Shown: one piece after another, positions 3,572-63,534 of the stretch | Layout: every line of letters begins with the position of its first letter | Position numbering within the stretch: the stretch's first letter is position 1 | Assembly: GCF_000768685.1 (NCBI RefSeq) | Contig: NZ_AVPK01000008.1 | Span: forward strand, 62,001 to 126,000 | Reading direction: 5' to 3' | DNA length: 64,000 nt | DNA from: Knoellia subterranea KCTC 19937 | Lineage (GTDB): Bacteria; Actinomycetota; Actinomycetes; Actinomycetales; Dermatophilaceae | The notes under the pieces: model-generated | Told to the model about the DNA's origin: nothing | Databases searched by the model: none | What the model saw: the letters and a program-made list of their open reading frames with translations, nothing else | Program-made: the position numbers and the translations under genes

Positions 3572-4336
3572 TCAGGGGCGGAGTCGCTTGGTCAGGTCCT
3601 CGGGCAGGAGTTGCGCGCCCCGGATGAGCCGCCCCGCGACGACCGCGGTGGTGGTCTGCGCGGCCATGATGCCGAGCAGCACGAGCACCTGCGCGGCCGC
3701 GGCCTGCGCGGGCGAACCGCCTCCGAGCAGTACCCCGATGAAGGCCCCCGGGAGCGTCACGACACCTGCCGTCTTCACCTGGTCCAGCCCGGGGATGAGC
3801 GCCTCCGGCAGGCGCCGGTCGACGATCTCGCCGATCGACTGGCTCCGCGTGAGCCCCAGGGACAACCCCGCGTCGTACTGCCCCGTCTCCTCGCGCAGCG
3901 CCGCAAAGGCGCGCCGCCCCACCAACGTGTGACCGTTCATCGTGTTGCCCAGGATGATGCCGACGACCGGGATGAGCGCGATGCCCTCGAGGGGCACGGT
4001 CCGCGTGAGCAGGATGATGGCGACGACCGGGAGCAACCCGGCGAGCATCGCCACCGTCGCCCAGGGCCACGCCCTCGTCGCCTCGACCCGTCGCGTCGTC
4101 GTGAAGACCGCGACGCCGAACATGAAGCACAGGAGCAGCACCGACAGCAGGAGGTTCTGCGCCACCGCGGTGATGACAAGCGCTGCCAGCCCGAGCTGCG
4201 CCACGGCCCGCGCGGCGGCCACGAGAGTGGAAGCCGGCCGCGGAAGCCGCCCCACGGCATACATGACCAACGTCAGCACGAGAAGGGCGACGCACGCAAT
4301 GGCGACCGGCCACCCGGGATCGATGCTCACACGCAC
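3572..4336 (-). CDS. FetB/UPF0014-family ABC transporter permease
   Basis: The 254-aa membrane protein has about six or seven hydrophobic helices and the family signatures GNTMNGHTLVGRR near the middle and LPGAFIGVLLGG with AAAAQ toward the C-terminus. FetB works with the ATPase FetA to export iron in Escherichia coli, and homologues are annotated as putative iron or metal exporters. No ATP-binding partner lies next to it here, so the partner must be elsewhere and the substrate is uncertain. The ATG start is followed at once by a hydrophobic helix. One copy of the dispersed 8-mer (4255-4262) lies in the gene. Confidence 0.85.
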   Translation of the reverse strand: MRVSIDPGWPVAIACVALLVLTLVMYAVGRLPRPASTLVAAARAVAQLGLAALVITAVAQNLLLSVLLLCFMFGVAVFTTTRRVEATRAWPWATVAMLAGLLPVVAIILLTRTVPLEGIALIPVVGIILGNTMNGHTLVGRRAFAALREETGQYDAGLSLGLTRSQSIGEIVDRRLPEALIPGLDQVKTAGVVTLPGAFIGVLLGGGSPAQAAAAQVLVLLGIMAAQTTTAVVAGRLIRGAQLLPEDLTKRLRP

Positions 4337-4400
4337 ACGCTAGGGGTTGCAGCCCCCCGGGCGTCGGACCCCGGTGCCAGACTGGGGCCGGGAGGTGGCC

Positions 4401-4820
4401 ATGGAGTGGTGGAGTGCGGCGCTGGCGTTCATCGGCGCGGGTGTGGGGTCATTGGTGTCCTATCTCGTGGCTCGGCGCGACATCGCCCAGCGTGAGGCGG
4501 AGGCGCGCGCGGACGTCGGCCAGCGGGTTGAGCAGGGGCACCTCGAGGAATGGGGGCGGCGCTTCACCATCGCGCTCGACGGGGTGAGCAGCGAGAGTCC
4601 CCGGCGACGATCCCTGTCCCGCGTGCTCCTCGTCGAGCTCGGGCAGAGCGCGCTGGCCACTGACCAGGAGAAGGCGCTCGTGCTCTCGGTCCTCGACGCC
4701 GGTGCCCGAATGGACGGCGACGGCGACGACGTCACCCGGTTCCGGGCGGGGATGCTGGTGGACGAGGTCGTCTACGTGGAGGACACTGGAGAGGACGACG
4801 ACGAGGGAGGAGTGCCGTGA
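4401..4820 (+). CDS. Small membrane-anchored hypothetical protein, 139 aa
   Basis: ATG 4401 is chosen because GGAGG lies about 6 nt upstream and the protein then opens with a single transmembrane helix (AALAFIGAGVGSLVSYLVA). A charged, probably cytoplasmic helical region rich in Glu, Arg and Ala follows, with an acidic tail (EDTGEDDDEGG). It is translationally coupled by GTGA overlap to the 51-codon gene downstream. Family and function are unknown. The N-terminal anchor plus helix suggests a scaffold or membrane-bound regulator, but nothing specific supports that. Confidence 0.65.
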   Translation: MEWWSAALAFIGAGVGSLVSYLVARRDIAQREAEARADVGQRVEQGHLEEWGRRFTIALDGVSSESPRRRSLSRVLLVELGQSALATDQEKALVLSVLDAGARMDGDGDDVTRFRAGMLVDEVVYVEDTGEDDDEGGVP

Positions 4821-4972
4821 AGGACAAGCTCGTGGTCAAGGTGACCCGTGACCAGATCCAGTCCGCGCGCGCCCTGATCGAGTTCGCGGGCGGCGAGGAC
4901 AAGGTCGATCCGGTCATCGTCCGCATCGCTCGCGCACAGCGGCCGCCGCGTCAGGCGCGCACCGCTTCCTGA
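4817..4972 (+). CDS. Very small hypothetical protein, 51 aa, coupled to the upstream gene
   Basis: GTG 4817 overlaps the upstream stop as GTGA. The product starts [20 protein letters not shown] and ends in an Arg/Ala-rich tail. It is basic, has no membrane segment and looks like a short beta hairpin followed by a helix. A 4-bp overlap with a gene that has a good ribosome site supports real expression as a two-gene unit. Function is unknown. Confidence 0.5.
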
Positions 4973-5205
4973 TTCACCGTTCGCCTCCGGAGTCGTGTTC
5001 GGCTGCGCCGATTTCTCGGTATGCCGTGTGCTCTGGCAAACTTGATCCTCGCGTCCGTCGAACGACGCCCCCGCCACAGGGGGAGTGCCGATCCGCAGTT
5101 CCACTCGGGTCATCCGGCATGAGGCACGACGACGCACCACCATCGGACAAGCAACACCATCCTGCGTGGGTGACCTGTGGCACCGCACGAGAAAGCGAAG
5201 CAGTC
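4973..5205 (+). promoter_or_regulatory. Upstream region and leader of rplS
   Basis: These 233 bp lie between the stop of the 51-codon gene and the rplS start. They hold one copy of the dispersed 8-mer GTATGCCG (5019-5026). I see no confident -35/-10 pair and no clear ribosomal-protein leader fold. The promoter for rplS must lie here. Confidence 0.4.
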
Positions 5206-5620: not shown

Positions 5621-6313
5621 ATGACATCGCCGGCCACCCACGACACCGACCCGGTTCCCGCCACCACGGCAGGGGCCGGGTCGAGTCATGCCCGCCGGAT
5701 CACGGTCCTCCTGGCCGTCGGCGTCCTGACCGTGATGCTCGTGCGCGCCCTGCTCCTGCAGCCGTATGCCGTGGCGACCGACTCCATGTCACCGACGCTC
5801 ACGCAGGGGGAGAGGGTGCTCGTGGCCAAGGTGGGTGCCCCTGCGGTCGGTGACGTGGTGGTCGCCGACGTGACGACAGCGTGGCCGGGGCCGGACCGCT
5901 CGACGCACACGGGTGACGGATTCATCGGGCGTGCCCTCGGTTCGGCCTCCGGGGCCGTCGGCATCGACCTCGGTGAAAAGTCGGTCCTGGGTCGAGTCGT
6001 GGCCGTCGGCGGCGACGAGGTCGCGTGCTGCACGTCGGGTCGGTTGACTGTCGACGGGCACGAAGTCGGCCCACGGCTCGCCGAATCCGCCGCACCGTTC
6101 CGCCTCACCGTCCCCGATGGCCGATACTTCATCCTGAGTGACACCGCCGCCTCGGCATCGGACTCGCGCACCCACGTCGGTGCCGGCTCCGAGTCGACGG
6201 ACGGCACGATCGCCGCGGACGCCATCATCGGTACGGTCGTCACGCGCATCTGGCCGCTGGGTCGGATGGGCGGTTTGTCCAGCCCCACCCCGTCGACCAC
6301 CCACGAGCCCTGA
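5621..6313 (+). CDS. Signal peptidase I paralogue lacking the catalytic lysine
   Basis: The 230-aa protein has an N-terminal membrane helix (about residues 27-47) followed by the S26 box with nucleophile Ser55 in DSMSPTL. At the general-base position, where the neighbouring paralogue has [11 protein letters not shown], this protein has VLGRVVAVGGD, so the lysine is Gly124. The nearest lysine is Lys120. The later box is also altered (SDTAASASDSR instead of [11 protein letters not shown]). In the S26 family this Ser/Lys dyad is needed for cleavage, so the protein is probably inactive or has another role, unless Lys120 substitutes. It sits directly before the intact lepB, which suggests an old tandem duplication. 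Confidence 0.85.
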   Translation: MTSPATHDTDPVPATTAGAGSSHARRITVLLAVGVLTVMLVRALLLQPYAVATDSMSPTLTQGERVLVAKVGAPAVGDVVVADVTTAWPGPDRSTHTGDGFIGRALGSASGAVGIDLGEKSVLGRVVAVGGDEVACCTSGRLTVDGHEVGPRLAESAAPFRLTVPDGRYFILSDTAASASDSRTHVGAGSESTDGTIAADAIIGTVVTRIWPLGRMGGLSSPTPSTTHEP

Positions 6314-8837: not shown

Positions 8838-10381
8838 GCGTGCGGCTTGGGCGGACCCTGAGCGTGGCTCTCTCCGGGCTCGACGGACGGCTCGTCGACG
8901 TCGAGGCGCACATCTCCGCGCAGCTGCCCCACTTCAGCGTCACCGGGCTGCCCGACAAGGCGTGCGGCCAGGCGCCCGACCGGGTGAAATCGGCGGCGGC
9001 CACGAGTGGCAGTCCGCTGCCCGCGTCCCGCATCACGGTGAACCTTTCGCCCGCCTCGCTCCCCAAGCAGGGCACCGGCTTCGACGTCGCCATCGCGCTC
9101 GCAGTATTGGCGGCGCACGGAGTCATCGACGGCAGGCGGATTGCACGGGTCGTCCATCTGGGCGAACTCGGCCTCGACGGTCGGGTGCGGGGTGTCCGCG
9201 GCATCCTGCCGTCCGTGCTCGCCGCTGCGCGTGCGGGCATCACCCACGTCGTCGTGCCGCCCGAGAACGTGGCGGAGGCGCAGCTCGTCGACGGGGTCGT
9301 CGTGCACTGTGCGCCCTCCCTCGCGACACTCGTGGCCTGGTATGCCGCGCGGGCCGGTGTGCATCCGCTGCCCGTTGCCGCGCCGGCCACGGACGATCGT
9401 CCCGCCACCACGAAGACGCCCGACCTCGCCGACGTGGTGGGCCAGCCCGAGCCGCGGCTGGCCATCGAGCTCGCCGCCGTGGGTCAGCACCACATCCTCA
9501 TGAACGGTCCGCCCGGGGTGGGCAAGACGATGCTCGCCGAGCGGCTCGTCACCGTTCTCCCGCCGCTGTCGCGCGAGCGCGCCCTCCAGAACCACGCCAT
9601 CAGGTCCCTGACCGGTGACGAAATCCGGGCGAGCGAGCTCGACCTCACCCCGCCCTTCGTGGCGCCGCACCACAGTGCATCGATGGCGGCGATCACCGGC
9701 GGCGGCTCGGGCGTGGTCCTGCCCGGCGCCATCTCCCGTGCTCACGGCGGTGTTCTCTTCCTGGACGAGGCCGGGGAGTTCAAGACCTCCGTCCTGCAGC
9801 AGTTGCGCCAACCGCTGGAGTCGGGCGAGGTGACGATCGCCCGGGCCAAGCAGCTCGTGCGCTACCCAGCGCAGTTCCAGCTCGTCATGGCGACGAATCC
9901 CTGCCCGTGCGGGCAGGCGTGGGGCAAGGGCATCGATTGTGTGTGCAGCGCTCTGGAGCAACGGTCCTACAAGGCCAAACTGTCGGGACCGCTCGTGGAC
10001 CGCATCGACATCCAGGTGGTCGTGGAGCCGGTGTCGCGGGCCGCCTTCGGGGACGACGGTGCGGGGGAGTCCAGTGCCGTGGTGCGGCAGCGGGTCCTGC
10101 AGGCGAGAGGCGCGCAGGTCGAGCGGTGGGCGAAACATGGGTGGGAGACCAACGCCCAGGTTCCCGGGCACGCACTGCGGCGTCGACCGTGGCGACTGCC
10201 GGGGGATCGGACGGCGGCCCTGGACCGTGCCCTCGACATCGGGGTGCTGACGCTGCGCGGATACGACCGCACGCTGCGACTCGCGTGGTCCTGCGCGGAC
10301 CTCGGGGGCCGGACGTCACCTGCGCTGGCCGACATCGAATTGGCCTACACCCTTCGGGGCGTGGGGAGGGAGGCAGCGTGA
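8834..10381 (+). CDS. comM: ComM/YifB-family AAA+ ATPase (Mg-chelatase-like)
   Basis: The 515-aa protein has an N-terminal ChlI-like domain (SGLDGRLVDVEAHIS, GLPDKA, NLSPASLPKQGTGFDVAIALAVL) and an AAA+ domain with Walker A GPPGVGKTM near residue 225 and Walker B VLFLDEAGEF. The zinc-like segment NPCPCG and a C-terminal Mg-chelatase-type domain follow. In Vibrio and Haemophilus, ComM is a hexameric helicase that promotes branch migration during natural transformation. It lies between yraN and dprA, joined to both by GTGA overlaps. Confidence 0.95.
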   Translation: MSVRLGRTLSVALSGLDGRLVDVEAHISAQLPHFSVTGLPDKACGQAPDRVKSAAATSGSPLPASRITVNLSPASLPKQGTGFDVAIALAVLAAHGVIDGRRIARVVHLGELGLDGRVRGVRGILPSVLAAARAGITHVVVPPENVAEAQLVDGVVVHCAPSLATLVAWYAARAGVHPLPVAAPATDDRPATTKTPDLADVVGQPEPRLAIELAAVGQHHILMNGPPGVGKTMLAERLVTVLPPLSRERALQNHAIRSLTGDEIRASELDLTPPFVAPHHSASMAAITGGGSGVVLPGAISRAHGGVLFLDEAGEFKTSVLQQLRQPLESGEVTIARAKQLVRYPAQFQLVMATNPCPCGQAWGKGIDCVCSALEQRSYKAKLSGPLVDRIDIQVVVEPVSRAAFGDDGAGESSAVVRQRVLQARGAQVERWAKHGWETNAQVPGHALRRRPWRLPGDRTAALDRALDIGVLTLRGYDRTLRLAWSCADLGGRTSPALADIELAYTLRGVGREAA

Positions 10382-11514
10382 GCAGCACGGCGAGGTTCGT
10401 GGTCCCCGGGGACGACGACCGTGAGCAGGAACGATGGGCCCGCGTGGCGTGGAGTCGTGTCGCCGAGCCGGAGACCGTGTCCGTCCGCGATTGGATCGCC
10501 CAGGAGGGTGCCGCGGAGTCCGTCCGAAGGCTCGTCTCCGGATCGCTGGCATCGGACGGTCGCTACGACCAGCGCGTCGCCACCCTCGACCTCGACCAGG
10601 CGCGTCATGCTCTGGACCGGCTCGACGTGCGCGTGCTCATCCCTGGCGACGAGGAGTGGCCCGAGGCTCTGGACGACCTGCCCTGCCCGCCGGTGTGTCT
10701 CTATGTCAAGGGCACCGGTCACCTGAGCATGACCGTCGGGAGCGTCGCTGTCGTGGGATCGCGCGCGGCGACCTCCTACGGCCTGCGGGTGGCCGCCGAG
10801 CTCGGCGAAGAGCTGGTGGACCGTGGAGTGGCGGTCGTGTCGGGCGCGGCGTTCGGGATCGATGCGGCGGCCCATCGCGGCGCGCTGGCCGGCGGTGGAC
10901 CGACGGTCGCAGTGCTCGCCCGCGGGCTCGACCGGGCCTACCCGCAGGCGCACGCAGGCCTGCTCCGCGAGATTGCCGACGGTGGGGCCGTGGTGAGCGA
11001 GTTGCCGCCGGGTTGGGCGCCCTATCGGCAGCGCTTCATCGCGCGCAACCGGATCATCGCTGCCCTCGGAGTGGGCACGGTCGTGGTCGAGGCAGGGCTG
11101 CGGTCCGGCTCGCTCAACACCGCCAAGGTGGCCCGCGAGCTCGTGCGTCACGTCGCGGCGGTGCCGGGTCCCGTGACCTCGGTCCAGTCCGCTGGTTGCC
11201 ACAAGCTCCTGCGCGAGACCGGAGCCACGCTCGTCACCGACGCCGCCGAAGTCCTCGACCTGATGGGACGTCTCAGTCTCGACTCGGTCGGCCTTGCGAG
11301 GGCGCCCGTCACCCCGGAGTCCGAACTCGACCCCACCGCGAGCAGCGTGTGGTCTGCCGTCCCGGTGCGCCGAACCACGGACCTGGCCGGGCTGCAACGC
11401 CTCACGGCGCTGGACCCGGCGACCCTGCTGAGTGTCCTGGGACGACTCGCCATGCTCGGGCTCGTCGAACGAGTCGATGGGGGGTGGCGCAAGATCCCGG
11501 CCTCGCGCCGCTGA
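10378..11514 (+). CDS. dprA: DNA processing protein DprA
   Basis: DprA loads RecA onto incoming single-stranded DNA during transformation. The 378-aa product starts at GTG 10378, which overlaps the comM stop as GTGA. The Rossmann-like core has VVGSRAATSYG, SGAAFGIDAAAHRGAL, RFIARNRIIAAL and EAGLRSGSLNTAKVA. A C-terminal winged-helix-like domain follows (about the last 60 residues). An upstream in-frame stretch inside comM is not coding for DprA. Confidence 0.95.
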   Translation: MSSTARFVVPGDDDREQERWARVAWSRVAEPETVSVRDWIAQEGAAESVRRLVSGSLASDGRYDQRVATLDLDQARHALDRLDVRVLIPGDEEWPEALDDLPCPPVCLYVKGTGHLSMTVGSVAVVGSRAATSYGLRVAAELGEELVDRGVAVVSGAAFGIDAAAHRGALAGGGPTVAVLARGLDRAYPQAHAGLLREIADGGAVVSELPPGWAPYRQRFIARNRIIAALGVGTVVVEAGLRSGSLNTAKVARELVRHVAAVPGPVTSVQSAGCHKLLRETGATLVTDAAEVLDLMGRLSLDSVGLARAPVTPESELDPTASSVWSAVPVRRTTDLAGLQRLTALDPATLLSVLGRLAMLGLVERVDGGWRKIPASRR

Positions 11515-14534: not shown

Positions 14535-15695
14535 TCAGCCGCGCAGTCGCGACAATCGCCGCGCCGCCTCCCGGAGCACGTCGTCCTGCTTGCAGAACGC
14601 GAACCGCACCAGCGTGCGGGCCGCGTCTTCGTCGTCGTGGAACACCGACACCGGCACACCGGCGACACCGGCCCGCCCAGGCAGCTCGCGGCAGAACTCC
14701 AGCGCATCGGTGGCACCCAGCGGCGCCGCATCGGCGACGACGAAGTACGTCCCTCCCGGCACGGCCACGTCGAGCCCGATCCCCGTCAGGGCCTCGACCA
14801 GCAGGTCACGTTTCGCCGACATCGAACGGGACAGGCCGGCATACACGGCGTCGTCGAGACCCAGCCCGAGCGCGACCGCCGGCTGGAACGGCCCCGACCC
14901 GACGTACGTGACGAACTGCTTGACCGTCCGCACCGCCGCGACAGCGGCCGCCGGACCGCTGACCCAGCCGACTTTCCACCCGGTGACCGAAAACGTCTTG
15001 CCGGCAGACGAGATCGTCAGCGTGCGGTCCCACATCCCCGGCAGCGTCGCGACCGGCACGTGCTCGAGTCCGTCGAAGACCAGGTGCTCATAGACCTCGT
15101 CGGTGACGACCCACGCGTCGTGCTCCCTCGCGAGCGCGCAGATCAGCTCGAGCTCGGCGCGGGTGAAAACCTTGCCCGTCGGGTTGTGCGGGGTGTTGAG
15201 CAGCACGAGCCGTGTCCGCGACGAGAAGGCGGCCCGCAGTGACTCCTCGTCGACCGCGAAGTCGGGAAACCGCAGCACCGACGTCCGACGGACGGCGCCC
15301 GCGAGGGCGATCGACGCGGCATACGAGTCGTAGTACGGCTCGAACGTCACGACCTCGTCTCCCGGCTCGCACAGGGCGAGGATCGTCGCGGCGATCGCCT
15401 CGGTCGCTCCCACCGTCACGAGCACCTCGCGGCGCGGGTCGACGTCGAGATCGTAGAACCGCTTCTGGTGCGCGGCGATGGCGTCGAGCAGCTCGGGGAC
15501 ACCGGGGCCGGGCGGGTACTGGTTGCGACCAGCGTCGATCGCCACCTTCGCGGCGTCGAGGATCTCCTGCGGGCCCTCCGTGTCCGGGAACCCCTGACCG
15601 AGATTGAGCGCGCCGTGCTCGTTGGCCAGCGTCGTCATCTCTGCGAAGATCGTCGATCCGAAGCCCTGCATCCGTTGCACGAGAGGCGAATCCAT
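14535..15695 (-). CDS. Class I/II PLP-dependent aminotransferase
   Basis: The 386-aa enzyme is a fold-type I aminotransferase: LGQGFPDTEGP near the N-terminus, NTPHNPTGK, DEVYEHL, and SSAGKTFSVTGWKVGW with the PLP-binding Lys. The family includes methionine or kynurenine aminotransferases and actinobacterial N-succinyldiaminopimelate aminotransferases (DapC-like); the sequence alone does not decide the substrate. The gene is transcribed away from the AlkD-like gene and the two ATG codons share two bases. A -10 box inside the alkD coding region suggests a leaderless mRNA. Confidence 0.9.
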   Translation of the reverse strand: MDSPLVQRMQGFGSTIFAEMTTLANEHGALNLGQGFPDTEGPQEILDAAKVAIDAGRNQYPPGPGVPELLDAIAAHQKRFYDLDVDPRREVLVTVGATEAIAATILALCEPGDEVVTFEPYYDSYAASIALAGAVRRTSVLRFPDFAVDEESLRAAFSSRTRLVLLNTPHNPTGKVFTRAELELICALAREHDAWVVTDEVYEHLVFDGLEHVPVATLPGMWDRTLTISSAGKTFSVTGWKVGWVSGPAAAVAAVRTVKQFVTYVGSGPFQPAVALGLGLDDAVYAGLSRSMSAKRDLLVEALTGIGLDVAVPGGTYFVVADAAPLGATDALEFCRELPGRAGVAGVPVSVFHDDEDAARTLVRFAFCKQDDVLREAARRLSRLRG

Positions 15696-16395
15696 GTCGG
15701 CAGGCTACGACGGTTCCGAGCTCGTCGACGCGATCCGCGCGGCGTTGCGATCGGGCGCCAACCCCGAGCGCGCGGTCGAGCAGCAGCGCTACATGAAGAG
15801 CGCTATGCCCTTCCTCGGCCTCACCTCACCCGAACGCACCGCGACTCTGCGTCCGCTCCTCGCCGATCCCGCCCTGCGGATCGAGACCCGCTCGGGCTGG
15901 GAACGCTCGATCCGATCCCTCTGGGACGGGGCCGAGTTCAGGGAGGACCGGTATGCCGGTCTCGCACTGCTCCGCCACCGCACCTATCGCTCGTGGCGCG
16001 ATCCGGACGTCATGCCGTTGGTCGAGCAACTGGTCGTGACGGGTGCGTGGTGGGACCTGGTCGACGAGTTGTCCAACGTCGTTGGGGAGGTGCTGATCGT
16101 CGACCCTGAGGGGGAGGGGCTCCGGATGCGGGCGTGGTCCGAACACGACGACCTGTGGCTCCGGCGGTCGGCGATCATCAGTCAGCTGCGCCACCGGGAG
16201 CGGACGGACACCGACCTCCTCGACGAGGTCATCGAGCCCAACCTCGACGACCGCGAGTTCTTCATCCGCAAGGCCATCGGGTGGGCGCTGCGGCAGTACG
16301 CCCGGACCGACCCGGACTGGGTGCGTGCTTTCGTCGAGCGCTACGACTCACGGCTGAGCGGGTTGAGCCGTCGCGAGGCCCTCAAGCATCTGTGA
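15694..16395 (+). CDS. DNA alkylation repair protein, AlkD-like
   Basis: The 233-aa protein is all helical with the HEAT-like features of AlkD DNA glycosylases: MKSAMPFLGL, LWDGAEFREDRYAGLALLRH, WWDLVDELSNVVGEVL, WLRRSAIISQL and FFIRKAIGWALRQYARTDPDWV. AlkD removes N3- and N7-alkylated purines. The AGAGG about 8 nt before ATG 15694 is a usable ribosome site. The ATG overlaps the aminotransferase ATG on the other strand as CATG. A truncated second copy of the C-terminal end lies at 17231-17392. Confidence 0.9.
   Translation: MSAGYDGSELVDAIRAALRSGANPERAVEQQRYMKSAMPFLGLTSPERTATLRPLLADPALRIETRSGWERSIRSLWDGAEFREDRYAGLALLRHRTYRSWRDPDVMPLVEQLVVTGAWWDLVDELSNVVGEVLIVDPEGEGLRMRAWSEHDDLWLRRSAIISQLRHRERTDTDLLDEVIEPNLDDREFFIRKAIGWALRQYARTDPDWVRAFVERYDSRLSGLSRREALKHL
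15702..15707 (-). promoter_or_regulatory. -10 box TAGCCT for the aminotransferase gene, inside the alkD 5' end
   Basis: On the minus strand TAGCCT ends exactly 6 nt before the ATG at 15695. The element lies within the first codons of the divergent AlkD-like gene. Confidence 0.5.
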
Positions 16396-17143: not shown

Positions 17144-17230
17144 CGGTCCACCGTCGTTGACCCGCGACGGTGGATCAACGCGGATGGCGGATCGTGACCG
17201 CGTTGTGATGACGGCTGAGCACGGCTTGGT

Positions 17231-17392
17231 ATGCCGTCCGCCCACGTCTGCGAGGATCCGCGCCTCCGCAAGGCCATCGGATGGGCGCTTCGGCAGCACG
17301 CCCTCACCGAGCCGGCGTGGGTGGTCGAATTCGTCGACCGTCACACTCAGCGTCTCGCGGGTCAGGGGCGGCTCAGTCGCGCTTTCGGCTGA
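17231..17392 (+). pseudogene. Remnant of a second alkD-like gene (C-terminal end only)
   Basis: An open frame of 53 codons contains LRKAIGWALRQHALTEPAWV and continues EFVDRHTQRLAGQGRLSRAFG. This aligns without gaps with the C-terminal end of the AlkD-like protein at 15694-16395 (IRKAIGWALRQYARTDPDWV, then AFVERYDSRLSGLSRREALKHL). The rest of the domain is missing upstream, where the minus-strand lipoprotein gene begins. The ATG at 17231 lies within a copy of the dispersed 8-mer. It overlaps the 3' end of the DUF1232 gene. It is most likely a decayed paralogue and not a functional short protein. Confidence 0.75.
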
Positions 17393-17693: not shown

Positions 17694-18959
17694 TCAGGCA
17701 GCCGGAGAGGGGGCAGCGGTGGCATCCGGATCGTCGTCGCCGGCGTGCGCGATCGAGTCGAGCTGCCGCCACATCAGGATGAGCGTGAGCCCGGCCCCGA
17801 CGAAGGCGAACCAGAACGGTGCCGCGATTCCCCAATGCGTGGCGATGAGCCCACCGAGGGCCTGGCCGACGAGCAGCCCCGCCGTGAGTCCGAACCAGTA
17901 GACCGAACCGACCCGTCCCTGGAACTCCAGGGGCGTGGCGCGTTGCCGCACCGTCGTCGAGACCGACCCCCACACGAAGGCGTAGCAACCGAAGACGAAC
18001 ATGAGCACCATGGCGAGCCACTGCGCCGTGGTGAGCGCAAACGCCAGGTGCACGACGACCTCGAGCGTGAGGCATACCTTCATGAGAGTCGCGAGCGAGG
18101 CGCGCGCCTGGAGGGCGTCGAAGACGAGGACCGCGACGATTCCGCCGGTCGCCGACGCCGTTGAGAGCAGGCCGAATCCGACCGGCCCCACGCCAAGGCG
18201 CTCCTGCGCCCAGAGGACGAGGACACCCCACGGCGCACCCCATGTGAGGTTGAAGACGAAGATCACGATCGACAGCGTGCGCACGGCGTGGTTGCCGCGG
18301 ATCCAGCGCAGGCCCTCAAGGATGTCGTGGCGGATGTGGGTGTCCGGGCGCTCCGACCGGTCGGTGCGCGGGATGTCGATCCGGGTGAACAACCATGCGG
18401 CCAGGAGCACCGCCGCGGCCTGCGCACCGAACGGGAGCGCCATTCCGGCAGCGAAGAGGAAAGCCCCGATCGGGGGACCGACGAGGTTGTTGGCGACGAG
18501 GTACCCGGCCATCATCCGCGCGTTGCCGACGGCCAGGTGGTCGCGGTGCACGATGAGTGGCAACACCGATCTGGTGCCCGCGTCGCTGAACTGCTCGGCC
18601 ACACCCACGAGGAACAGGGCGCCCAGGACGACCCAGATGCCGACGACGTCCGTGACGATCGTGGCCACGAGCGTCCCGATGACCAGAGCTCGCAGGACGT
18701 TCGCAACGACCACGAGGCGATGGCGACTGATGCGATCGGCCAGCGCACCGGCATACAGGGAGAAGACCAGGCTGGGCACCTGCTGGACGATGACCGCGGC
18801 AGCGATCAACGAGGGGTTGCGGGTCAGTGAGGCGACGAGCAGGGGACCGGCGGCGAGCGCGATGCCGTCGCCGAGGTTGCTGGCCCAGACCGACGCAAGG
18901 TTCCAGCGGAAGGGTCGCCCGAGCCGGGCCGGCGCGATGATTTCCCCCAGACGAGACAC
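17694..18959 (-). CDS. MFS transporter, putative drug exporter
   Basis: The 421-aa protein has about 12 membrane helices. The loop ALADRISRHRLVV between helices 2 and 3 is the MFS motif A (G/A-x-L-x-D-R). The layout resembles the enterobactin-exporter-like (EntS) or MFS_3 group. Substrate unknown. The start is taken as GTG 18959, because a -10 box sits 8 nt upstream. A much longer in-frame extension across rpsB and tsf is not coding. Confidence 0.9.
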   Translation of the reverse strand: MSRLGEIIAPARLGRPFRWNLASVWASNLGDGIALAAGPLLVASLTRNPSLIAAAVIVQQVPSLVFSLYAGALADRISRHRLVVVANVLRALVIGTLVATIVTDVVGIWVVLGALFLVGVAEQFSDAGTRSVLPLIVHRDHLAVGNARMMAGYLVANNLVGPPIGAFLFAAGMALPFGAQAAAVLLAAWLFTRIDIPRTDRSERPDTHIRHDILEGLRWIRGNHAVRTLSIVIFVFNLTWGAPWGVLVLWAQERLGVGPVGFGLLSTASATGGIVAVLVFDALQARASLATLMKVCLTLEVVVHLAFALTTAQWLAMVLMFVFGCYAFVWGSVSTTVRQRATPLEFQGRVGSVYWFGLTAGLLVGQALGGLIATHWGIAAPFWFAFVGAGLTLILMWRQLDSIAHAGDDDPDATAAPSPAA

Positions 18960-18973: not shown

Positions 18974-19331
18974 CGCGGGAGGCGAGCGCCCGGCATACCG
19001 GAATGTCGCGTGTCAGGAGAGCGCGACTTCTTGCCCGGGTGGGACAACTTGCTGGCGCTCGCCGTCCCAGCAGGGCAAGGAGTCGGGGCGCGGCGTGGAT
19101 TTCGTCCAGGGACCCCGGCACGCGTAGGATTGAGCGCGGTTTTCGTGTGCCCGCACACGGGAGCCAAATTCGCGCGACTCGCCACCACTGACTGGACCAC
19201 CACGAAGCGGGGCGCACCACGACAGTCCGACTGCCACGAGGCAGACGGCGGGGTGCGTCGAGTCGCCAGGCAGGTACCCACAATCCGTGGGTCACCGACG
19301 CAACTGAAACAACGCACAAGGAGAACACGGC
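18974..19331 (+). promoter_or_regulatory. rpsB promoter and leader region
   Basis: This 358-bp gap holds the rpsB promoter. A candidate -10 is TAGGAT at 19125-19130 with a weak -35 TTCGTC at 19101-19106 (18-bp spacer). That would give a leader of about 195 nt. The end has a strong ribosome site AAGGAG about 8 nt before the rpsB ATG. One copy of the dispersed 8-mer lies at 18991-18998. No other gene is visible. An S2-binding leader structure is possible but I could not identify one. Confidence 0.4.
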
Positions 19332-22758: not shown

Positions 22759-22817
22759 GACTGGACCTCGCCGCACCACTGGGCGGCACGGCATACGAAC
22801 GAAAGAGGCGTGACCAC

Positions 22818-36676: not shown

Positions 36677-36786
36677 GGTGCCGAGTCTTCCGAGCGCAGC
36701 CGCTCGCCACATCGGGCTCACGAGCGATCCTGCATCCATCCAGAGATGTATGCCGTGTGGTCACCTCGCCGTCCGGCTCCGGTCCG

Positions 36787-47716: not shown

Positions 47717-48006
47717 TCGCCATCGTCACGCTTCTGGTCGCGTTCCCGGTCGGCTACTTCTTCCGCAGCCGGCTGGCAGCAAACACCGTGTATGCCGTTG
47801 CCTATCTCTGGGCGTTCGTCTTCCAGAGCGTCTATCTCCTGCTTTCGGTCGGCCAGCCCGAGGCCGCGTTCACTTCGGGCGACTTCCCGTGGGACTACGG
47901 GCTGGTCACGGCTGCCGTCTTCGGAGCCGGTTTTGCCCTCGTGGCCGCGGGGCAGTGGGCACGATCCCGCCGCGGGGCTGCCGCGTCGGCGGTCCAGGAG
48001 GCGTGA
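47713..48006 (+). CDS. Small membrane protein, 97 aa, three helices
   Basis: Three hydrophobic segments ([52 protein letters not shown]) and a basic tail. It is coupled to the upstream small membrane gene by ATGA. The pair and the divergent two-component system probably act as one response unit. Function unknown. Confidence 0.72.
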
Positions 48007-52390: not shown

Positions 52391-52917
52391 GGCTTCCACT
52401 CCAGGTCGGCGTCGGTCAGTGCGGAGTCGAGGATGCCGAGTGCCTTCGGGCCCATGCCGTGCAGCGCGGCGATGTCGGCGCGAGTCCACTCGGACAGCTC
52501 CTCGAGCGTCGTGATGCCGACGTGCTCCATCGCGTTCTGGGCCGGATTGCTCGTCTTCGGCAGCGGAGTCCCCATGGCTTCGAGAGTAGCCGCGATCCGT
52601 TGCCGGTATGCCGCGGCCAGGGCCTCGAGGTCCGCGCGGTAGTCCGCGATCCGGCAACCCAAACCGTTGCGCTTCACGAGGATTCCCTCGTCGGCCCAGT
52701 GGGGGCGTGCCTGCGTGAGCAGCGGTGGGGGAAGGTCTCCGGCGGCGTTCGTGATCCGCCACCAGGGCAGTCCCTCGCTGTGGTGACGCATGAACGCGCC
52801 CACCTGTCGCGGGCCGATCCCGACGATGGCGGCGAGGTCGCCGTAGGACACGACCCGCCCCCTCGGCACGAGCTCGACGAGGGTCAGCACCCGCTCGATC
52901 GTCAGCTCACTGGCCAT
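52387..52917 (-). CDS. Alkyltransferase-like (ATL) DNA-binding protein with C-terminal helix-hairpin-helix domain
   Basis: Residues 1-95 match the MGMT DNA-binding domain (VPRGRVVSYGDLAAIVG, RQVGAFMRHH), but the active PCHR is replaced by PWWRI, so no methyl transfer is possible. ATL proteins bind O6-alkylguanine and hand it to nucleotide excision repair. The last 60 residues (EHVGITTLEELSEWTRADIAALHGMG) form a helix-hairpin-helix of the RNA polymerase alpha-CTD type. Such a fusion would add a second DNA- or protein-binding surface. It is coupled to the PPOX-like gene. Confidence 0.87.
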   Translation of the reverse strand: MASELTIERVLTLVELVPRGRVVSYGDLAAIVGIGPRQVGAFMRHHSEGLPWWRITNAAGDLPPPLLTQARPHWADEGILVKRNGLGCRIADYRADLEALAAAYRQRIAATLEAMGTPLPKTSNPAQNAMEHVGITTLEELSEWTRADIAALHGMGPKALGILDSALTDADLEWKP

Positions 52918-52952: not shown

Positions 52953-54233
52953 GTGGTGGGACCCGAGATCGTCGTGAGCACTCAGTCGCTCCCGAGCCTC
53001 TGGCGGGACGGCGACTTCCTGCGCTACTGGGGCTCCCGCGCGGTCACGATGATCGGCTCGTCCGTCACCGCGGTTGCCCTGCCCGTCCTCATCTACCACC
53101 TCACCGGTTCACCCGCCCTGACGTCCGGCCTCAGGGCGACGAGCACCCTGTCGATGGCGGCTTTCGGCCTCGTCGGCGGCGTCCTCGGCGACCGCTTCGA
53201 CCGCCGCCGCATCATGATCACCGCCGACCTCGTCAGCGCGCTCGCCATCGCGAGTCTCGTCGCGGCTCACCTTGCCGGGGTCCTCACCGTTCCTCATGTG
53301 TATGCCGCCGACTTCGCCTCCGCGTCGGCGGCTGTCCTTTTCGACGGGTCCAGTGCCGGAGCACTGCCGACCCTCGTGGGTCGACCACGATTGCCGGAGG
53401 CCAACGCCCGCATCTGGGGCACGCAGGGAGTCCTCGACGTCGTCATGCCGGCACTCGCCGGGCTGGCGCTCGCGATCTGGTCGCCGGCCAGTCTCCTGGT
53501 CATCGATGTCCTGTCGTTCGTCGGGAGCGCCCTACTCGTGCGCGCCATCCGCGGTGCCCTCAACGAACGGCGTGCCAGGACCGTCAGGACGACCGCCCGG
53601 GACCTCTGGGCGGACCTCGTCGAAGGCGTCACCTTCCTCCGACGCCATCCGACCCTGTGGCCGCTCGCGATGGTGGCGGTCTTCGGGGCCGGGTCGGCGG
53701 CCGCCCTGCTCGGCCTCATCGTGCCGTGGGCCGACCGCGTCCTCGGTGTGGGCACGAGCGGGTGGAGGTTCGGGATGCTCTTCGGCAGTTGGGCGGCTGG
53801 TGCGTTCTTCGCGTCCTTCCTCATGCCGCGACTGAGCCGGCGGTATGGAGCGATCCGGCTCGCGCAGTGCCTCTTCCCGGCCATGACCGTGCTGTTGCTC
53901 GTCCTCAGCCGGCTTGATCGCTACGGCGGGGCGCTCGCGGTCTACCTCGCCCACGCCACCCTGCACGTCCTGGTCATCAGCGCCACCGTCACCTATCGCA
54001 TGCAGATCGTTCCCGAACGCCTCCTGTCCCGAGTGAGCACTGCATCACGCACGCTCTCGTGGGGTGGCGGCGCGACGATCGGGGTTCTCGTCTCGGGCCA
54101 GCTCGCCTCGCACTTCGGCGTGAGGGCCGCCCTCCTCGCGGTGGCCGTCGCCAACGGCTGTGCCGCCCTGCTCGCCTGGGTGCCCGCCCTGCGGCGAGCG
54201 GCACCCACGGCGCGGTACGCGGAAACGGCGTGA
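52953..54233 (+). CDS. MFS transporter
   Basis: The 426-aa protein has about 12 membrane helices. MFS motif A appears as GGVLGDRFDRRRIMI. It resembles the macrolide-efflux/EntS-like MFS group, like the transporter at 17694, but the two are only distantly alike. Substrate unknown. The GTG start follows a leaderless-type -10 box. Confidence 0.9.
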   Translation: MVGPEIVVSTQSLPSLWRDGDFLRYWGSRAVTMIGSSVTAVALPVLIYHLTGSPALTSGLRATSTLSMAAFGLVGGVLGDRFDRRRIMITADLVSALAIASLVAAHLAGVLTVPHVYAADFASASAAVLFDGSSAGALPTLVGRPRLPEANARIWGTQGVLDVVMPALAGLALAIWSPASLLVIDVLSFVGSALLVRAIRGALNERRARTVRTTARDLWADLVEGVTFLRRHPTLWPLAMVAVFGAGSAAALLGLIVPWADRVLGVGTSGWRFGMLFGSWAAGAFFASFLMPRLSRRYGAIRLAQCLFPAMTVLLLVLSRLDRYGGALAVYLAHATLHVLVISATVTYRMQIVPERLLSRVSTASRTLSWGGGATIGVLVSGQLASHFGVRAALLAVAVANGCAALLAWVPALRRAAPTARYAETA

Positions 54234-54403
54234 CCGGCATACCTGCCTGCATGGGCCATCCGAACCAGCCCGAACCGGTGGGTCCGGCTGGCCCGCCCGA
54301 GTGATGTGACCACGCTGCGCAGCGAGGACAGTTGAAGTGACGACGCGACGGGCAGGCCGTCGCAATGCCGGGTCGTCTGGTCTGGGGTGGAAGGAGACCA
54401 GAC

Positions 54404-55330: not shown

Positions 55331-55392
55331 CGTGAGTCGCGCGGCCGTGCGGACGACACGGAATCCGCGTGAACGGCATACCGGGTCGTCGT

Positions 55393-55435: not shown

Positions 55436-57223
55436 GTGGCCATGCGCATGTCCTCGCTGTTCCTGCGAACCCTGCGCGACAACCCGGCGGACGCCGAGCT
55501 GCCCGGTCACCGGCTCCTCGTGCGCGCCGGCTACATCCGTCGCGCAGCCCCCGGCATCTACACGTGGCTGCCGCTCGGGCTCAAGGTGCTGCGCAAGGTC
55601 GAGGCGATCGTGCGTGAGGAGATGGACGCGATCGGCGCCCAGGAGCTGACGTTCCCCGCGCTGCTGCCGCGTGAGCCCTACGAGGCGAGCAACCGCTGGA
55701 CCGAGTACGGCGACAACATCTTCCGCCTCAAGGACCGCAAGGACGCCGACTACCTGCTCGGGCCGACGCACGAGGAGATGTTCACCCTCGCGGTCAAGGA
55801 CATGTACTCGTCCTACAAGGACCTGCCGCTCAGCCTCTACCAGATCCAGAACAAGTACCGCGACGAGGCGCGTCCGCGCGCCGGGCTCCTGCGCGGCCGC
55901 GAGTTCATCATGAAGGACTCGTACTCGTTCGACGTCTCCGACGAGGGTCTGGACGCGTCCTACCAGGCGCACCGCGAGGCCTACATCCGGATCTTCGACC
56001 GGCTCGGCTTCGAGTACGTCATCGTCTCCGCGATGTCCGGCGCGATGGGCGGCTCGGCGAGCGAGGAGTTCCTCGCCGTGAGCGAGATCGGCGAGGACAC
56101 GTTCGTCCGCAACGACGCCGGGACGTATGCCGCGAACGTCGAGGCAGTCGTCGTGCCGACCGCTGACGCGGTCGATGCGTCGGGTATGCCGGCCGCCCAC
56201 GTCGAGGACACGCCTGACACTCCGACGATCGAGACGTTGGTGTCGGTGCTCAATGCCTCGCATCCGAGGTCGGACGGGCGCGAGTGGACGGCCGCGGACA
56301 CGCTGAAGAACGTCCTCGTCATGCTCGTCCACCCGGACGGCACCCGCGAGCCGCTCGCCATCGGCGTGCCCGGGGACCGCGAGGTCGACGCCAAGCGACT
56401 CGAGGCTCAGGTCGGCCCGGCCGAGGTGGAGGCCTTCGAGGAGAAGGACTTTGCGCGCTACCCGATGCTCGCCAAGGGCTACATCGGCCCGGGCGTCCTC
56501 GGCGAGGAAAAGTCGTCGGGAATCCGCTACCTCCTCGACCCGCGCATCGGTGCGGGTTCGGCGTGGGTGACAGGTGCCGACGAGACGGGCAAGCACGTGC
56601 TCGACCTCGTCCACGGGCGCGACTTCACCGCCGACGGCACGATCCAGGCGGCCGAGGTGCGTGAGGGCGACGCGAGCCCGGACGGCAACGGTGTCCTGCA
56701 CACGGCTCGCGGCATCGAGATGGGCCACATCTTCCAGCTCGGCCGCAAGTTCGCCGAGGCGCTCGACCTCAAGGTGCTCGACGAGAACGGCAAGCTCGTC
56801 ACCGTCACGATGGGGTCCTACGGCATCGGTGTCTCGCGCGCCGTCGCCGCGATCGCCGAGGGGAACCTCGACGACGCGGGCCTGATCTGGCCCCGCAACG
56901 TCACGCCGGCCGACGTCCACGTCGTTGCCACCGGCAAGAACCGTGAGCGCGACGGCGACGTCTTCGCCAAGGCCGACGAGCTCACGGAGGCGTTCGAGGC
57001 CGCGGGTCTCGACGTGATCTATGACGACCGCGAGAAGGTCAGCCCCGGCGTGAAGTTCAAGGACTCCGAGCTCATCGGCGTCCCCACGATCGTCGTCGTC
57101 GGCAAGTCCCTCGAGAACGGCATCGTCGAGATCAAGGACCGTCGCACTGGCGAGCGCCGAGAGGTGCCCGTCGACTCGGTGCTGGACGAGGTGCTGGCCG
57201 AGGTCCGCGGAGCCACCGCGTGA
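55436..57223 (+). CDS. proS: Prolyl-tRNA synthetase
   Basis: The 595-aa class II enzyme is of the bacterial type with an editing insertion. Motif 1 includes [25 protein letters not shown]; motif 2 is [22 protein letters not shown]; the insertion runs about residues 225-400; motif 3 is [19 protein letters not shown]. An anticodon-binding domain follows ([18 protein letters not shown]). GTG 55436 or ATG 55442 can be the start. The next gene overlaps its stop by GTGA. Confidence 0.97.
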
Positions 57224-58798: not shown

Positions 58799-59471
58799 AT
58801 CCCGCTCTGTCGAGGACCTGTTGGGGCGGTTGGAGTCCCTCGTCGCTCGGGTTGCTCCGCGTCGGGCCGTCCTCGGGATCGCCGGGCCACCGGGAGCCGG
58901 CAAGACGACCCTGGTGAGCCGACTGCTCACCGCCGTGACGGCATACGAGGGTCTCTCTGGACGGGTCGCGCACGTGCCGATGGACGGCTTCCACCTCACG
59001 AACGCGGAGCTCGACGCGTTGGGGCGACGTGACCGCAAGGGCGCGCCGGACACGTTCGATGCCATCGCGTATGCCGGTGTGCTGGCTTCCACTCGCGCGG
59101 TGCCTCGCGCGGTGGTCGCGGCACCGACGTTCGATCACGGGCTGGGTGAGCCGGTGGCGGCTGGTGCGGTGGTGCCGGTGGATGCGGATCTCGTGGTGAC
59201 GGAGGGGAACTACCTGTTGCTGGGCTCGGGGGACTGGGCCGCCGTGCCGCCGCTGCTCGACGAGGTGTGGTGGTGTGCCCTGGACGGGGAGGTTCGCGTG
59301 TCGCGCCTCGTGGCGCGGCACGTGGAGACCGGGCGTGGCCTTGAGGACGCGACCGAGTGGGTGCTGCGGTCCGATGAGGCGAACGCGCAGGCTGTGGTCG
59401 ATGCTGCCGGAGAGGCCCGGGCCGACGTGGTGTTCGTCGATGGATCCGTTGTGCGAGAGGGACGTTCGTGA
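58785..59471 (+). CDS. Nucleoside/nucleotide kinase-like P-loop protein (uridine kinase/FrcK type)
   Basis: The product (about 228 aa) has Walker A in GIAGPPGAGKTTLVSRLL, VAHVPMDGFHLTNAELD with the substrate Asp, and VVTEGNYLLLGSGDW, the pattern of uridine-kinase/pantothenate-kinase-like proteins annotated as FrcK-like. No ATG or GTG starts the frame; TTG 58785, inside the end of the TSUP gene, is the best candidate. The product overlaps cobK by 4 bp. Confidence 0.85.
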   Translation: MASGESRSVEDLLGRLESLVARVAPRRAVLGIAGPPGAGKTTLVSRLLTAVTAYEGLSGRVAHVPMDGFHLTNAELDALGRRDRKGAPDTFDAIAYAGVLASTRAVPRAVVAAPTFDHGLGEPVAAGAVVPVDADLVVTEGNYLLLGSGDWAAVPPLLDEVWWCALDGEVRVSRLVARHVETGRGLEDATEWVLRSDEANAQAVVDAAGEARADVVFVDGSVVREGRS

Positions 59472-61750: not shown

Positions 61751-62511
61751 CTCCCTGACGCGAGGACGACGAGCAGGACGGTGAAGGCCACTTCGGTCGA
61801 CGCCCCCATGACGTCACCCGTGACGCCACCGAAGACGCGACGGCAGGTTCGCAGGAGCAGCCCCACGGCCACGCCTGCCAGCACGACTACGACAGCCCCG
61901 CTCCAAGGAGACAGCCCCGATGCGGCGGCGACCAAAGTCAGTAGTGCCGCGACGACGACACCCCCGAGACCAGCCACCCAGATCGGGACGGAACCAGCGA
62001 CGACGGCGCCGAGGCCGCTGGGGCGGGCGGACGGCATACCGGATCGGCAGGTGAGCAGGAGGGCTGCGCGCGAGGCGACCACGACGGCTGCGGTGAGCAA
62101 CCAGCCCCACGGGCGAGCCACGACCGCCGACAGTGCGGCGACCTGGACGAGGAGGATGAGCACGACGGCAGCCACACCCATCGGGCCGACGTCACTGCGA
62201 CGCATGATCTCGAGGGCCCGTTCGCGGGTCCACCCGCCACCGATCCCGTCGACCGTGTCGGCGAGCCCGTCGAGGTGCATCGCACGGGTTCCACCAGCAA
62301 GCACCGCGACCGTGAGAGCCGCGACGACGAGCGGCGGCAACACAGCCAGGTCACCGAGCGCGACGACGACCGCGGCCGCCATCGCCACCGGCAACGCCGC
62401 CACGGGGGAAAGCGACATGGCCCAGCGCGCGTGCCCGGGAGTGGGGTCGGCGATCTGGCCAACCGGTACGACGGTCAGCGTCCCCACTGCCAGGCGCAGC
62501 CCAGAAGCCAT
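61744..62511 (-). CDS. cobS: Adenosylcobinamide-GDP ribazoletransferase (cobalamin synthase)
   Basis: CobS joins the lower base to adenosylcobinamide-GDP in the membrane. The 255-aa protein has about six or seven helices and the signature HLDGLADTVDGIGGGWTRE, with RRSDVGPMGVAAVV and, near the C-terminus, GGVTGDVMGASTEVAF. ATG 62511 is the start. It follows cobA after 15 bp. Confidence 0.95.
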   Translation of the reverse strand: MASGLRLAVGTLTVVPVGQIADPTPGHARWAMSLSPVAALPVAMAAAVVVALGDLAVLPPLVVAALTVAVLAGGTRAMHLDGLADTVDGIGGGWTRERALEIMRRSDVGPMGVAAVVLILLVQVAALSAVVARPWGWLLTAAVVVASRAALLLTCRSGMPSARPSGLGAVVAGSVPIWVAGLGGVVVAALLTLVAAASGLSPWSGAVVVVLAGVAVGLLLRTCRRVFGGVTGDVMGASTEVAFTVLLVVLASGRW

Positions 62512-62526
62512 GTCGGACAATGGAAC

Positions 62527-63534
62527 TCAGTCCTCGAGCGCTGCGACGACCGGACCGATGACGGTGATGGCCGGCGCGGTGATGTCCTGCTCGGCAGCGG
62601 CGTCGGCGATCTGAGACAAAGAGGCCCGTGCCATCCGCTGGCTCGGCATCGCGCCGTCGGCGATGGACGCAGCGGGCGTGTCTGGATCGAGGCCGTGCTC
62701 GATGAGGACATCGGCGATCTCGGCGATCGCGGCCACGCCCATGAGCACGACGATCGTCAGGCCGCTCTGCGCCAGCGCCGCCCAGTTGGCGTCGTTGCGC
62801 TCATCCCGGGGGCCGACGTGGCCGGACACGACGACGAAGCCCTGCGTGAGCCCGCGGTGGGTGAGGGGGATGCCGGCGAGCGCGGGTACGGCCACCGCGG
62901 ACGTCACTCCCGGAATGACCTCGACGGGTATGCCGTGTGCCCGGCACGCCAGCCACTCCTCGCCTCCGCGGCCGAAGACGTAGTTGTCGCCGCCCTTGAG
63001 GCGGACGACGTACTTGCCGGCGAGGGCGTGCTCGACGAGGAGGTCGTTGATCGCCTCCTGTGGCGTGAAGGCACCCCGCGGGATCTTGCCCACGTGGATG
63101 ACCTCGGCGTCGGGTCGTGCCTGCGAGAGTGCGGACAGGGGAGCGAGCCGGTCGCAGACGAGGACGTCCGCGTGTTGGATCGCGCGCAGGCCCGCGACAG
63201 TGAGGAGGTCGACGGAGCCTGGGCCGCCGCCGACGAGGCTGACCCGGCCCTGGGGCGTGTCGGCTGTGGCTGCTGTGTTGTCGGGGGAGGTCGTCATGGG
63301 GTCGCGCAGGACGACGTCGAAGTCGGTGATGTGGACCTCGTCGATGACCGTGGCGAGCTGCCGTCCCTCGAGGTCCGCCATGACAGCACGGGTCTCGGGG
63401 GTCGTGGACCCCATGGGAGTGATCGTGACGTGGGCGCCCTGGTCGGTGAGGGCATGCACGGTCTCGGCGACGCGGGGTCCCGGCCACGTGATCAGGACGC
63501 GCGCACCGTGCGGCACGGGAAGGGTGAGGCTCAT
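62527..63534 (-). CDS. cobA: Uroporphyrinogen-III C-methyltransferase with short N-terminal extension
   Basis: The enzyme makes precorrin-2 from uroporphyrinogen III with SAM. The methyltransferase domain spans about residues 95-335: RVSLVGGGPGSVDLLTVAGL, VIHVGKIPRGA, YVVRLKGGDNYVFGRGGEE, PVEVIPGVTSAVAVPALAG. The first 95 residues read like a shortened NAD-binding siroheme-synthase domain (ARVLITWPGPRVAETVHALTD), but have lost length for full activity. The related Mycobacterium protein Rv2847c has a longer one. The start overlaps the aminotransferase gene by ATGA. Confidence 0.93.
   Translation of the reverse strand: MSLTLPVPHGARVLITWPGPRVAETVHALTDQGAHVTITPMGSTTPETRAVMADLEGRQLATVIDEVHITDFDVVLRDPMTTSPDNTAATADTPQGRVSLVGGGPGSVDLLTVAGLRAIQHADVLVCDRLAPLSALSQARPDAEVIHVGKIPRGAFTPQEAINDLLVEHALAGKYVVRLKGGDNYVFGRGGEEWLACRAHGIPVEVIPGVTSAVAVPALAGIPLTHRGLTQGFVVVSGHVGPRDERNDANWAALAQSGLTIVVLMGVAAIAEIADVLIEHGLDPDTPAASIADGAMPSQRMARASLSQIADAAAEQDITAPAITVIGPVVAALED

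Follow-up and report, generated by a model that had tools for sequence, protein, structure and literature searches.

Copies of the octamer in the window

The DNA considered here is a 64-kb stretch (the window) of the 3.57-Mb genome of Knoellia subterranea KCTC 19937, which is assembled in 33 contigs; it covers positions 62,001 to 126,000 of its contig. Scattered along it are copies of an 8-mer, GTATGCCG (the core), which is non-palindromic in that it differs from its own reverse complement. An exact word search placed 22 copies on the plus strand and 18 on the minus strand, and all 40 positions and strands listed in the original prediction, which had been made from the letters of this DNA alone, proved exact. 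No other 8-mer of the window is as over-represented as GTATGCCG (40 copies against 1.16 expected under an order-2 Markov model). Dinucleotide shuffles of the window held a mean of 0.80 copies and at most 4, with none of 100 shuffles reaching 40; the two to three copies at first ascribed to chance were therefore somewhat too many. No Rfam family was matched in the window at gathering thresholds.

Genes were called with a crude script, so that intergenic counts are approximate; by these calls, 11 of the 40 copies lie outside genes. These are the copies at 5019..5026, 17229..17236 and 36748..36755 on the plus strand and at 18991..18998, 22789..22796, 54235..54242 and 55374..55381 on the minus strand, together with two inverted pairs, each located between convergent genes. 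The first pair has its left arm at 21158..21165 (plus) and its right arm at 21184..21191 (minus) and folds into a hairpin of -35.8 kcal/mol (z -5.8). The second, with its left arm at 26443..26450 (minus) and its right arm at 26464..26471 (plus), gives -19.4 kcal/mol (z -3.1). A third pair is genic and lies in dxr, with its left arm at 42202..42209 (plus) and its right arm, antisense, at 42225..42232 (minus), and folds at -28.8 kcal/mol (z -6.0). The suggestion that inverted pairs act as hairpins was thus supported by all three pairs folded, strongly for two and moderately for the pair at 26443/26464. Among the remaining genic copies, one lies within a comM/yifB-family gene (9340..9347, plus), one in ispG (48329..48336, plus) and two in proS (56125..56132 and 56184..56191, both plus). 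Antisense copies occupy 29175..29182, 37932..37939, 52606..52613 and 62928..62935 on the plus strand and 39489..39496 and 58939..58946 on the minus strand. The other genic copies are found on the plus strand at 5764..5771, 15951..15958, 30154..30161, 32002..32009, 44540..44547, 47790..47797, 53300..53307 and 59069..59076, and on the minus strand at 4255..4262, 14837..14844, 15317..15324, 18749..18756, 29325..29332, 29538..29545, 34626..34633, 46995..47002 and 62032..62039.

Copies at orthologous positions were identical in 25 of 31 comparisons with three relatives (8 of 11, 12 of 13 and 5 of 7), which reuse the same window sites from one relative to the next; by comparison, identity was 24-27% for 8-mers in general, and 14 of 61 control words were identical. 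All three aligned relatives were identical at 52606, 55374, 59069 and the first proS copy (56125), both aligned relatives at 44540, 53300, 62032 and 62928, and the single aligned relative, K. sinensis, at 39489, 42202 and 42225. At 58939 one of three relatives was identical. The copy in ispG is matched by an identical word in relative L002 and by the one-mismatch neighbour CTATGCCG in relative L001, and the second proS copy (56184) is absent from all three aligned relatives. Sites are both gained and lost by substitution at orthologous positions.

Two genes with a bearing on transformation lie in the same window, as originally predicted, and both were confirmed by profile matches. The gene at 8864..10381 on the plus strand encodes a YifB-family Mg-chelatase-like AAA ATPase (TIGR00368, 441.6 bits against a cut-off of 362.4), a family that also goes by the name of ComM, the transformation helicase. 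It is followed on the same strand, at 10399..11514, by the gene for DprA, the DNA-processing protein of transformation (TIGR00732, 221.7 bits against a cut-off of 191.15).

Nucleotide-level enrichment and an extended footprint

The whole 3.57-Mb genome holds 1,233 forward and 1,211 reverse copies, 2,444 in all, against 54 (22 and 32) for a control consisting of the same word read backwards, so that the near-even strand use seen in the window holds genome-wide and the genome-wide count is far from chance. Further analyses were performed on two samples, one of 464 kb from the same genome (the window plus 20 stretches, with 320 copies) and one of 400 kb from the complete genome of a second Knoellia, G003 (233 copies). 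GTATGCCG is again the most over-represented 8-mer of the first (320 against 14.6 under an order-3 Markov model). Most one-mismatch neighbours are not enriched in either sample; CTATGCCG is enriched 3.4-fold and 2.4-fold, respectively, and a few words with small counts exceed it in one sample, the highest ratio being 6 against 1.3 in G003.

Enrichment of the word is not confined to one reading frame. Genic copies in the own-genome sample were distributed over sense-2 (118), antisense-1 (77), antisense-2 (21), sense-1 (19) and the two other frames (5 each), with 3 at gene edges, and 72 of the 320 copies were intergenic. Density was higher between genes than within them, at 11.0 against 6.2 per 10 kb in the own sample and 7.9 against 5.5 in G003, the latter a modest excess (p 0.016). 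Where the word falls within genes, it appears to dictate the choice among synonymous codons. Tyrosine is encoded by TAT in 510 of 2,362 cases overall (22%) and in 118 of 144 contexts in which TAT completes the word (xxG-TAy-GCC-Gxx), against 17 of 53 contexts in which the first G alone is missing and none of 18 in which the last G alone is missing; the corresponding figures in G003 are 73 of 81, 15 of 48 and 3 of 18. Similarly, alanine before TAC is encoded by GCA in 77 of 119 cases after xCG and in 6 of 176 otherwise (G003, 70 of 98 and 4 of 158), and the glycine of Gly-Met-Pro(CCG) is GGT in 12 of 15 cases in the own sample and 13 of 16 in G003. Copies are sparsest in the genes whose codon bias is strongest (2.8 per 10 kb in the top quartile against 8.3 in the bottom quartile; 4.2 against 5.5 in G003), as would be expected if GTATGCCG carries some cost. 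Enrichment therefore acts at the nucleotide level, independently of frame, and overrides synonymous codon choice. This agrees with the earlier view that codon bias is insufficient, given that the word is read in several frames and also occurs between genes.

A search for consensus around the core, which had been proposed as a check, returned one that is weak, phased and about 59 bp long. With each flank position corrected for codon phase, and with index 0 assigned to the first G of the core, significant preferences in Knoellia extend from -12 to +46 around a rigid 8-bp core. Upstream they consist of A from -10 to -8 and at -5, C at -3 and G at -1, where A is avoided. Downstream they consist of T+8, G+11, C or G at +12, T+13, C+14, C at +16 and +17 and T at +18 and +19, followed by G+24, C from +33 to +35, T at +36 and +37 and T+42. 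Position +57 barely passes the significance threshold (chi-squared 21), and the far-flank background has a mean chi-squared of 3.5 for 3 degrees of freedom. T+8, T+18 and T+36 are each distinct in 189 sense, 160 antisense and 79 single intergenic copies taken separately (near-flank background, 2.9 to 4.7), which argues that neither codons nor hairpins create them. The flank signal is also retained in the 442 copies that have no neighbour within 150 bp. A Terrabacter-like genome, G028 (75 copies), displays T+18 (32 against 8 expected), C+33 (50 against 32) and, weakly, T+36 (16 against 8). Within the Knoellia flank a CCTT-like element at +16 to +19 recurs at +33 to +37, at a distance of 18 bp (T+18/T+36), which suggests two similar contacts made by one reader or by two subunits. 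The core extended by T+8, GTATGCCGT, has ATGCCGT in common with the 12-bp DNA uptake sequence (DUS) of Neisseria and lacks the CTG core of the DUS; this overlap is probably a coincidence.

Copies are placed almost at random along the chromosome. The even spacing for which a test had been suggested was not found: gaps have a coefficient of variation of 0.97 and counts in 10-kb bins a variance-to-mean ratio of 1.07, close to a Poisson process. No strand skew between replichores beyond chance was detected across 20 stretches of the complete G003 chromosome, analysed with no origin assigned (maximum 0.054, a value reached by 48% of random draws). Of 31 pairs closer than 80 bp among the 553 copies of both samples, 28 are opposite and 3 the same in orientation, and many of the opposite pairs form long stem-loops, like the three folded in the window.

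Distribution and dialects across the family

We surveyed the word across 394 genomes of the class and then, with 186 genomes from 53 genera, across the family of the host, Dermatophilaceae/Intrasporangiaceae. Strong enrichment in the class-wide survey was limited to this family (five of the eight family genomes drawn). The highest of the 386 other genomes holds 386 copies in 7.5 Mb against 176 of the control, and a small outlier, G351, holds 170 against 27. In the family census a genome was called enriched at 80 or more copies per Mb and at least 2.4 times the control, thresholds of our own setting. By this definition 112 of the 186 genomes are enriched for GTATGCCG, with totals of 101,822 forward and 102,178 reverse copies. 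Nine genomes, chosen by eye and including two weak cases (G009 and G745), are enriched for a dialect differing by one base, GGATGCCG, and four of these nine are enriched for both words.

The dialect is the top 8-mer in 3 of 15 samples from genera poor in GTATGCCG, and it can all but replace the original word, with 3,949 copies of GGATGCCG and 40 of GTATGCCG in G033 and 3,816 and 235 in G024. Flanks of 203 copies of GGATGCCG in G033 are significant at -8, +8, +12, +13, +14, +16 and +18, all offsets that are also significant in Knoellia, and the favoured base is the same at -8 (A), +14 (C) and +18 (T). We read the two words as belonging to one recognition system with a shifted specificity, on the evidence of these common offsets. 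All four genomes drawn from genus g230 (G653, G654, G655 and G656) carry both words in differing proportions, from 361 GTATGCCG and 4,480 GGATGCCG in G653 to 1,217 and 2,195 in G655, and look as if they were in transition, midway through a dialect switch. The single genomes G637, G709 and G688 have no enriched word within motif-rich genera, the word being lacking in single genomes of g51, g242 and g25, and such losses would be useful for finding the gene that drives the motif. Placed on a tree of proS with 54 rows, the motif states require no fewer than 11 changes; this is a tree of one gene, and its two outgroup rows fail to form one side. ProS of the window has 90-91% identity to its counterparts in Knoellia sinensis, K. 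locipacati and 'Janibacter sp. HTCC2649', and three of the eight congeners agree with these records at 100% across the proS locus. As a separate observation, ProS of the congener G002 is only 75% identical to that of the window, against 87-90% for the other seven congeners, and its gene has perhaps been replaced by horizontal transfer.

A related word marks a second family of the order, f19, one member of which, G055, carries CGGATGCC-n-CG. The 11-mer CGGATGCCNCG is at least seven-fold over its control in 16 of 17 f19 genomes, with 192 to 2,671 copies, the richest genome having 2,671 against 29 for the reversed control and the seventeenth, G191, 59 against 13. None of the 231 genomes from outside f19, among 248 surveyed in the order, has more than 95 copies. 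CGGATGCCNCG has GGATGCC in common with the GGATGCCG dialect, and all three words contain ATGCC.

A candidate uptake tag, its possible reader and rival explanations

On these observations together, GTATGCCG is probably the core element of a tag that marks self DNA throughout the genome and acts, by uptake drive, in the manner of the Neisseria and Haemophilus uptake sequences. A sequence-biased step of natural transformation, at surface capture or later, would favour tagged DNA; incoming tagged fragments would recombine into the genome, tagged alleles would replace untagged ones, and copies would accumulate wherever codons and function allow. That the motif is read by a component of the uptake machinery, and that uptake is the step at which the bias operates, are both inferences. 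We favour this explanation because the combined set of features matches uptake sequences; to our knowledge, no other kind of word is at once non-palindromic, strand-even, dispersed and blind to frame, with phased flanks, inverted pairs and dialects. Uptake, chromosome architecture, methylation and mutation bias had all been left standing by the original prediction. The uptake-like option has since gained from the enrichment at synonymous sites, the wide phased footprint, the dialects, the hairpin pairs and the presence of ComEC, ComEA, DprA and ComM, and the other three have weakened.

A DUS occurs on both strands and is scarce in acquired DNA. Among other over-represented short words, Chi and KOPS show strand polarity and HIP1 is a palindrome; GTATGCCG is likewise an over-represented short word but has neither property. 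According to the relevant passages of PMC12616744 and PMC3630211, uptake sequences are reported only for Neisseriaceae and Pasteurellaceae, and the passages of PMC7811141 and PMC2734928 on the subject name the same two groups. The DUS of Neisseriaceae is described in part of PMC3630211 as a short non-palindromic word with thousands of copies, intergenic inverted pairs capable of forming stem-loops, and dialects between related species, and in all these respects GTATGCCG is alike. A section of PMC12616744 gives CTG as the inner core of the DUS and GCGG as that of the uptake signal sequence (USS) of Pasteurellaceae. GTATGCCG lacks CTG, and the Knoellia motif differs further from the ComP-read DUS in belonging to another phylum (Actinomycetota), in its longer footprint and in a PilT that passes its cut-off in 1 of 36 genomes. 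Excerpts of PMC7811141 and PMC12616744 depict the USS as a rigid core with weakly conserved flank segments, in two sequence types, an arrangement that the Knoellia motif also has, together with dialects; the former excerpt specifies a motif of 9-11 bp with AT-rich flanks. GTATGCCG lacks GCGG, its flank in Knoellia extends to +46, and uptake preference, demonstrated for the USS, is a prediction for the Knoellia motif. By its letters GTATGCCG is thus neither a DUS nor a USS, and in the features compared here it behaves like both.

The machinery of transformation is present in the family, although no receptor or driver gene for the motif emerged among the PilT, ComEC and Tad candidates. ComEC was found in all 36 family genomes tested, and a simple pattern applied to one strand recognised a ComEA-like protein next to it in 12 of 30 loci, 9 of them motif-rich and 3 motif-poor. 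In a member of the same phylum, Micrococcus luteus, parts of PMC8467076 and PMC6370729 describe com genes and two tad clusters essential for transformation, one of which adjoins an FtsK/SpoIIIE translocase; terms for uptake sequences are absent from two M. luteus papers searched for them. As in M. luteus, where transformation depends on a Tad/Flp pilus, a Tad locus adjoins an FtsK/SpoIIIE protein in four family genomes (G033, G017, G018 and G030), of which only G033 is motif-rich. Of 186 genomes, 183 matched a model of the helicase-neighbourhood Tad ATPase at E<=1e-60, a level also within reach of other Tad types, and 168 passed its cut-off, motif-rich and motif-poor alike. At the helicase-neighbourhood Tad locus of G000 (L272:12310-13635), two related proteins of 151 and 142 amino acids are encoded between tad-like genes and a Flp pilin gene; clustering among 26 stretches gave one relative of these proteins, in G002, and no other.

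Several results weigh against an uptake tag. Sixty-nine of the 186 family genomes are enriched for neither GTATGCCG nor GGATGCCG. The T+18 and T+36 flanks are lacking in G011, G012 and G034 (66, 113 and 50 copies) despite the common core. Around GGATGCCG in G033 the flank bases differ or are broader at the other common offsets, with C rather than G at -1, and significance ends at +18; for the 140 copies in G024 it is limited to -1, +8 and +9. The motif cannot be predicted from possession of the apparatus either: genera poor in the motif have ComEC just as often, and ComEC, without variation across the 36 genomes, was rejected as the driver on presence or absence. A type IVa pilus was rejected as well: G032 is the only one of 36 genomes in which PilT passes its cut-off (in G013 there are two strong partial matches, on separate contigs), and ComP on such a pilus was not encountered, although no search was aimed at ComP itself. 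Tad loci were rejected because none of those in the 26 stretches varies with the motif. The helicase-neighbourhood Tad ATPase does not reach its cut-off in 18 of 186 genomes, one of which, G012 (best E 5e-74), is motif-rich, and of nine Knoellia genomes at least three (G000, G004 and G008) have no match assignable to the second Tad type, G002 being ambiguous. Literature searches on uptake sequences or natural transformation in Actinobacteria/Actinomycetota, Microbacteriaceae and Intrasporangiaceae, and on Knoellia, returned no such data for the organisms studied here.

The evidence on whether GTATGCCG is scarce in acquired DNA points both ways. Of 86 bins of 10 kb, the six with low GC (guanine plus cytosine content; the cut, 0.02 below the sample mean, was ours) hold 11 copies where about 40 are expected. 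Among the four bins with at most one copy, one has integrase-core and IS110 transposase genes (one copy), two have glycosyltransferase or UDP-sugar dehydrogenase genes, and one gave no family match for the gene tried. Weighing on the other side, the correlation of GC with copy number over all bins is significant in G003 (rho 0.34, p 0.03) but absent from the own sample (rho 0.06, p 0.70), and codon-atypical genes, a proxy for foreign ones, are not depleted. A Tetrasphaera jenkinsii phage carries 2 copies in 49.0 kb (0.6-0.9 expected) against 28 in a 21.8-kb locus of T. australiensis, a comparison weakened by the differing GC of the phage (57.7%) and by a locus that is not from its host species. 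A phage portal family was found in none of 20 motif-rich family genomes, against 4 of 14 control genomes with a match, and prophages with this portal type seem rare in the former. We go no further than calling an uptake tag probable, since the flank signal is less pronounced in genomes other than Knoellia and G028 and this test of acquired DNA is mixed.

Other explanations fare less well. An unlikely one, though the best of them, is a site for chromosome architecture or a nucleoid protein, in which a DNA-binding protein specific to the family would recognise the 59-bp element and serve to organise or segregate the chromosome. The wide footprint with its phased flank pattern, the spread of copies along the whole sampled chromosome (with gaps of the variation given above) and the enrichment between genes would all fit, but known architecture signals are far rarer or strand-polarised, whereas here there are 2,444 copies with no skew beyond chance. 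In addition, near-Poisson placement means that nothing maintains an even spacing, and the patchy losses and dialect swaps within genera would require the binding protein to be retuned repeatedly. We consider it quite improbable that the word is recognised by an orphan methyltransferase, or by a self-recognising defence system shielding tagged DNA; the word is non-palindromic and family-specific with dialects, as a target of either might be, but restriction sites are normally avoided rather than multiplied, and a methyltransferase would have no need of a 59-bp footprint. The chances are slimmer still for a Chi-like recombination hot-spot read by a helicase-nuclease such as RecBCD or AdnAB. An 8-bp core, high copy number and lineage specificity recall Chi, which is strand-biased with respect to replication, whereas the 1,233:1,211 ratio here comes without replichore bias and a consensus out to +46 is ill-suited to a short helicase-read word. 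Mutation or repair bias, codon-pair bias or a dispersed mobile element could account for abundance alone and is slightly less probable again, since most one-mismatch neighbours are unenriched (even CTATGCCG reaches only the values given above), enrichment extends to sense, antisense, all frames and the space between genes, the flank consensus is weak and position-specific, unlike a copied insert, and the bin with integrase-core and IS110 transposase genes has a single copy. Least probable of all is that selection acts on transcription terminators or RNA hairpins and that the remaining copies are their decay, for although inverted pairs do form hairpins, only 28 close opposite-orientation pairs exist among 553 copies, and the flank consensus persists in single genic copies and in the 442 without neighbours.

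Returning to the uptake tag, we lean towards a broader proposal, that Actinomycetota evolved their own sequence-specific transformation. This would be a third lineage with uptake sequences and the first in monoderms, spanning at least two families (GTATGCCG, GGATGCCG and CGGATGCCNCG), with dialect switching inside genera, and the Knoellia motif would be recognised across about 59 bp by a receptor other than ComP on a type IVa pilus. If so, these bacteria would provide an independent Gram-positive soil case, in which gains, losses and dialect swaps over 186 genomes offer a comparative test of how uptake sequences originate, whether by receptor bias and drive or by selection for kin DNA. The motif would also predict partners in gene exchange within a large environmental group, and may offer a practical tag for transforming these organisms.

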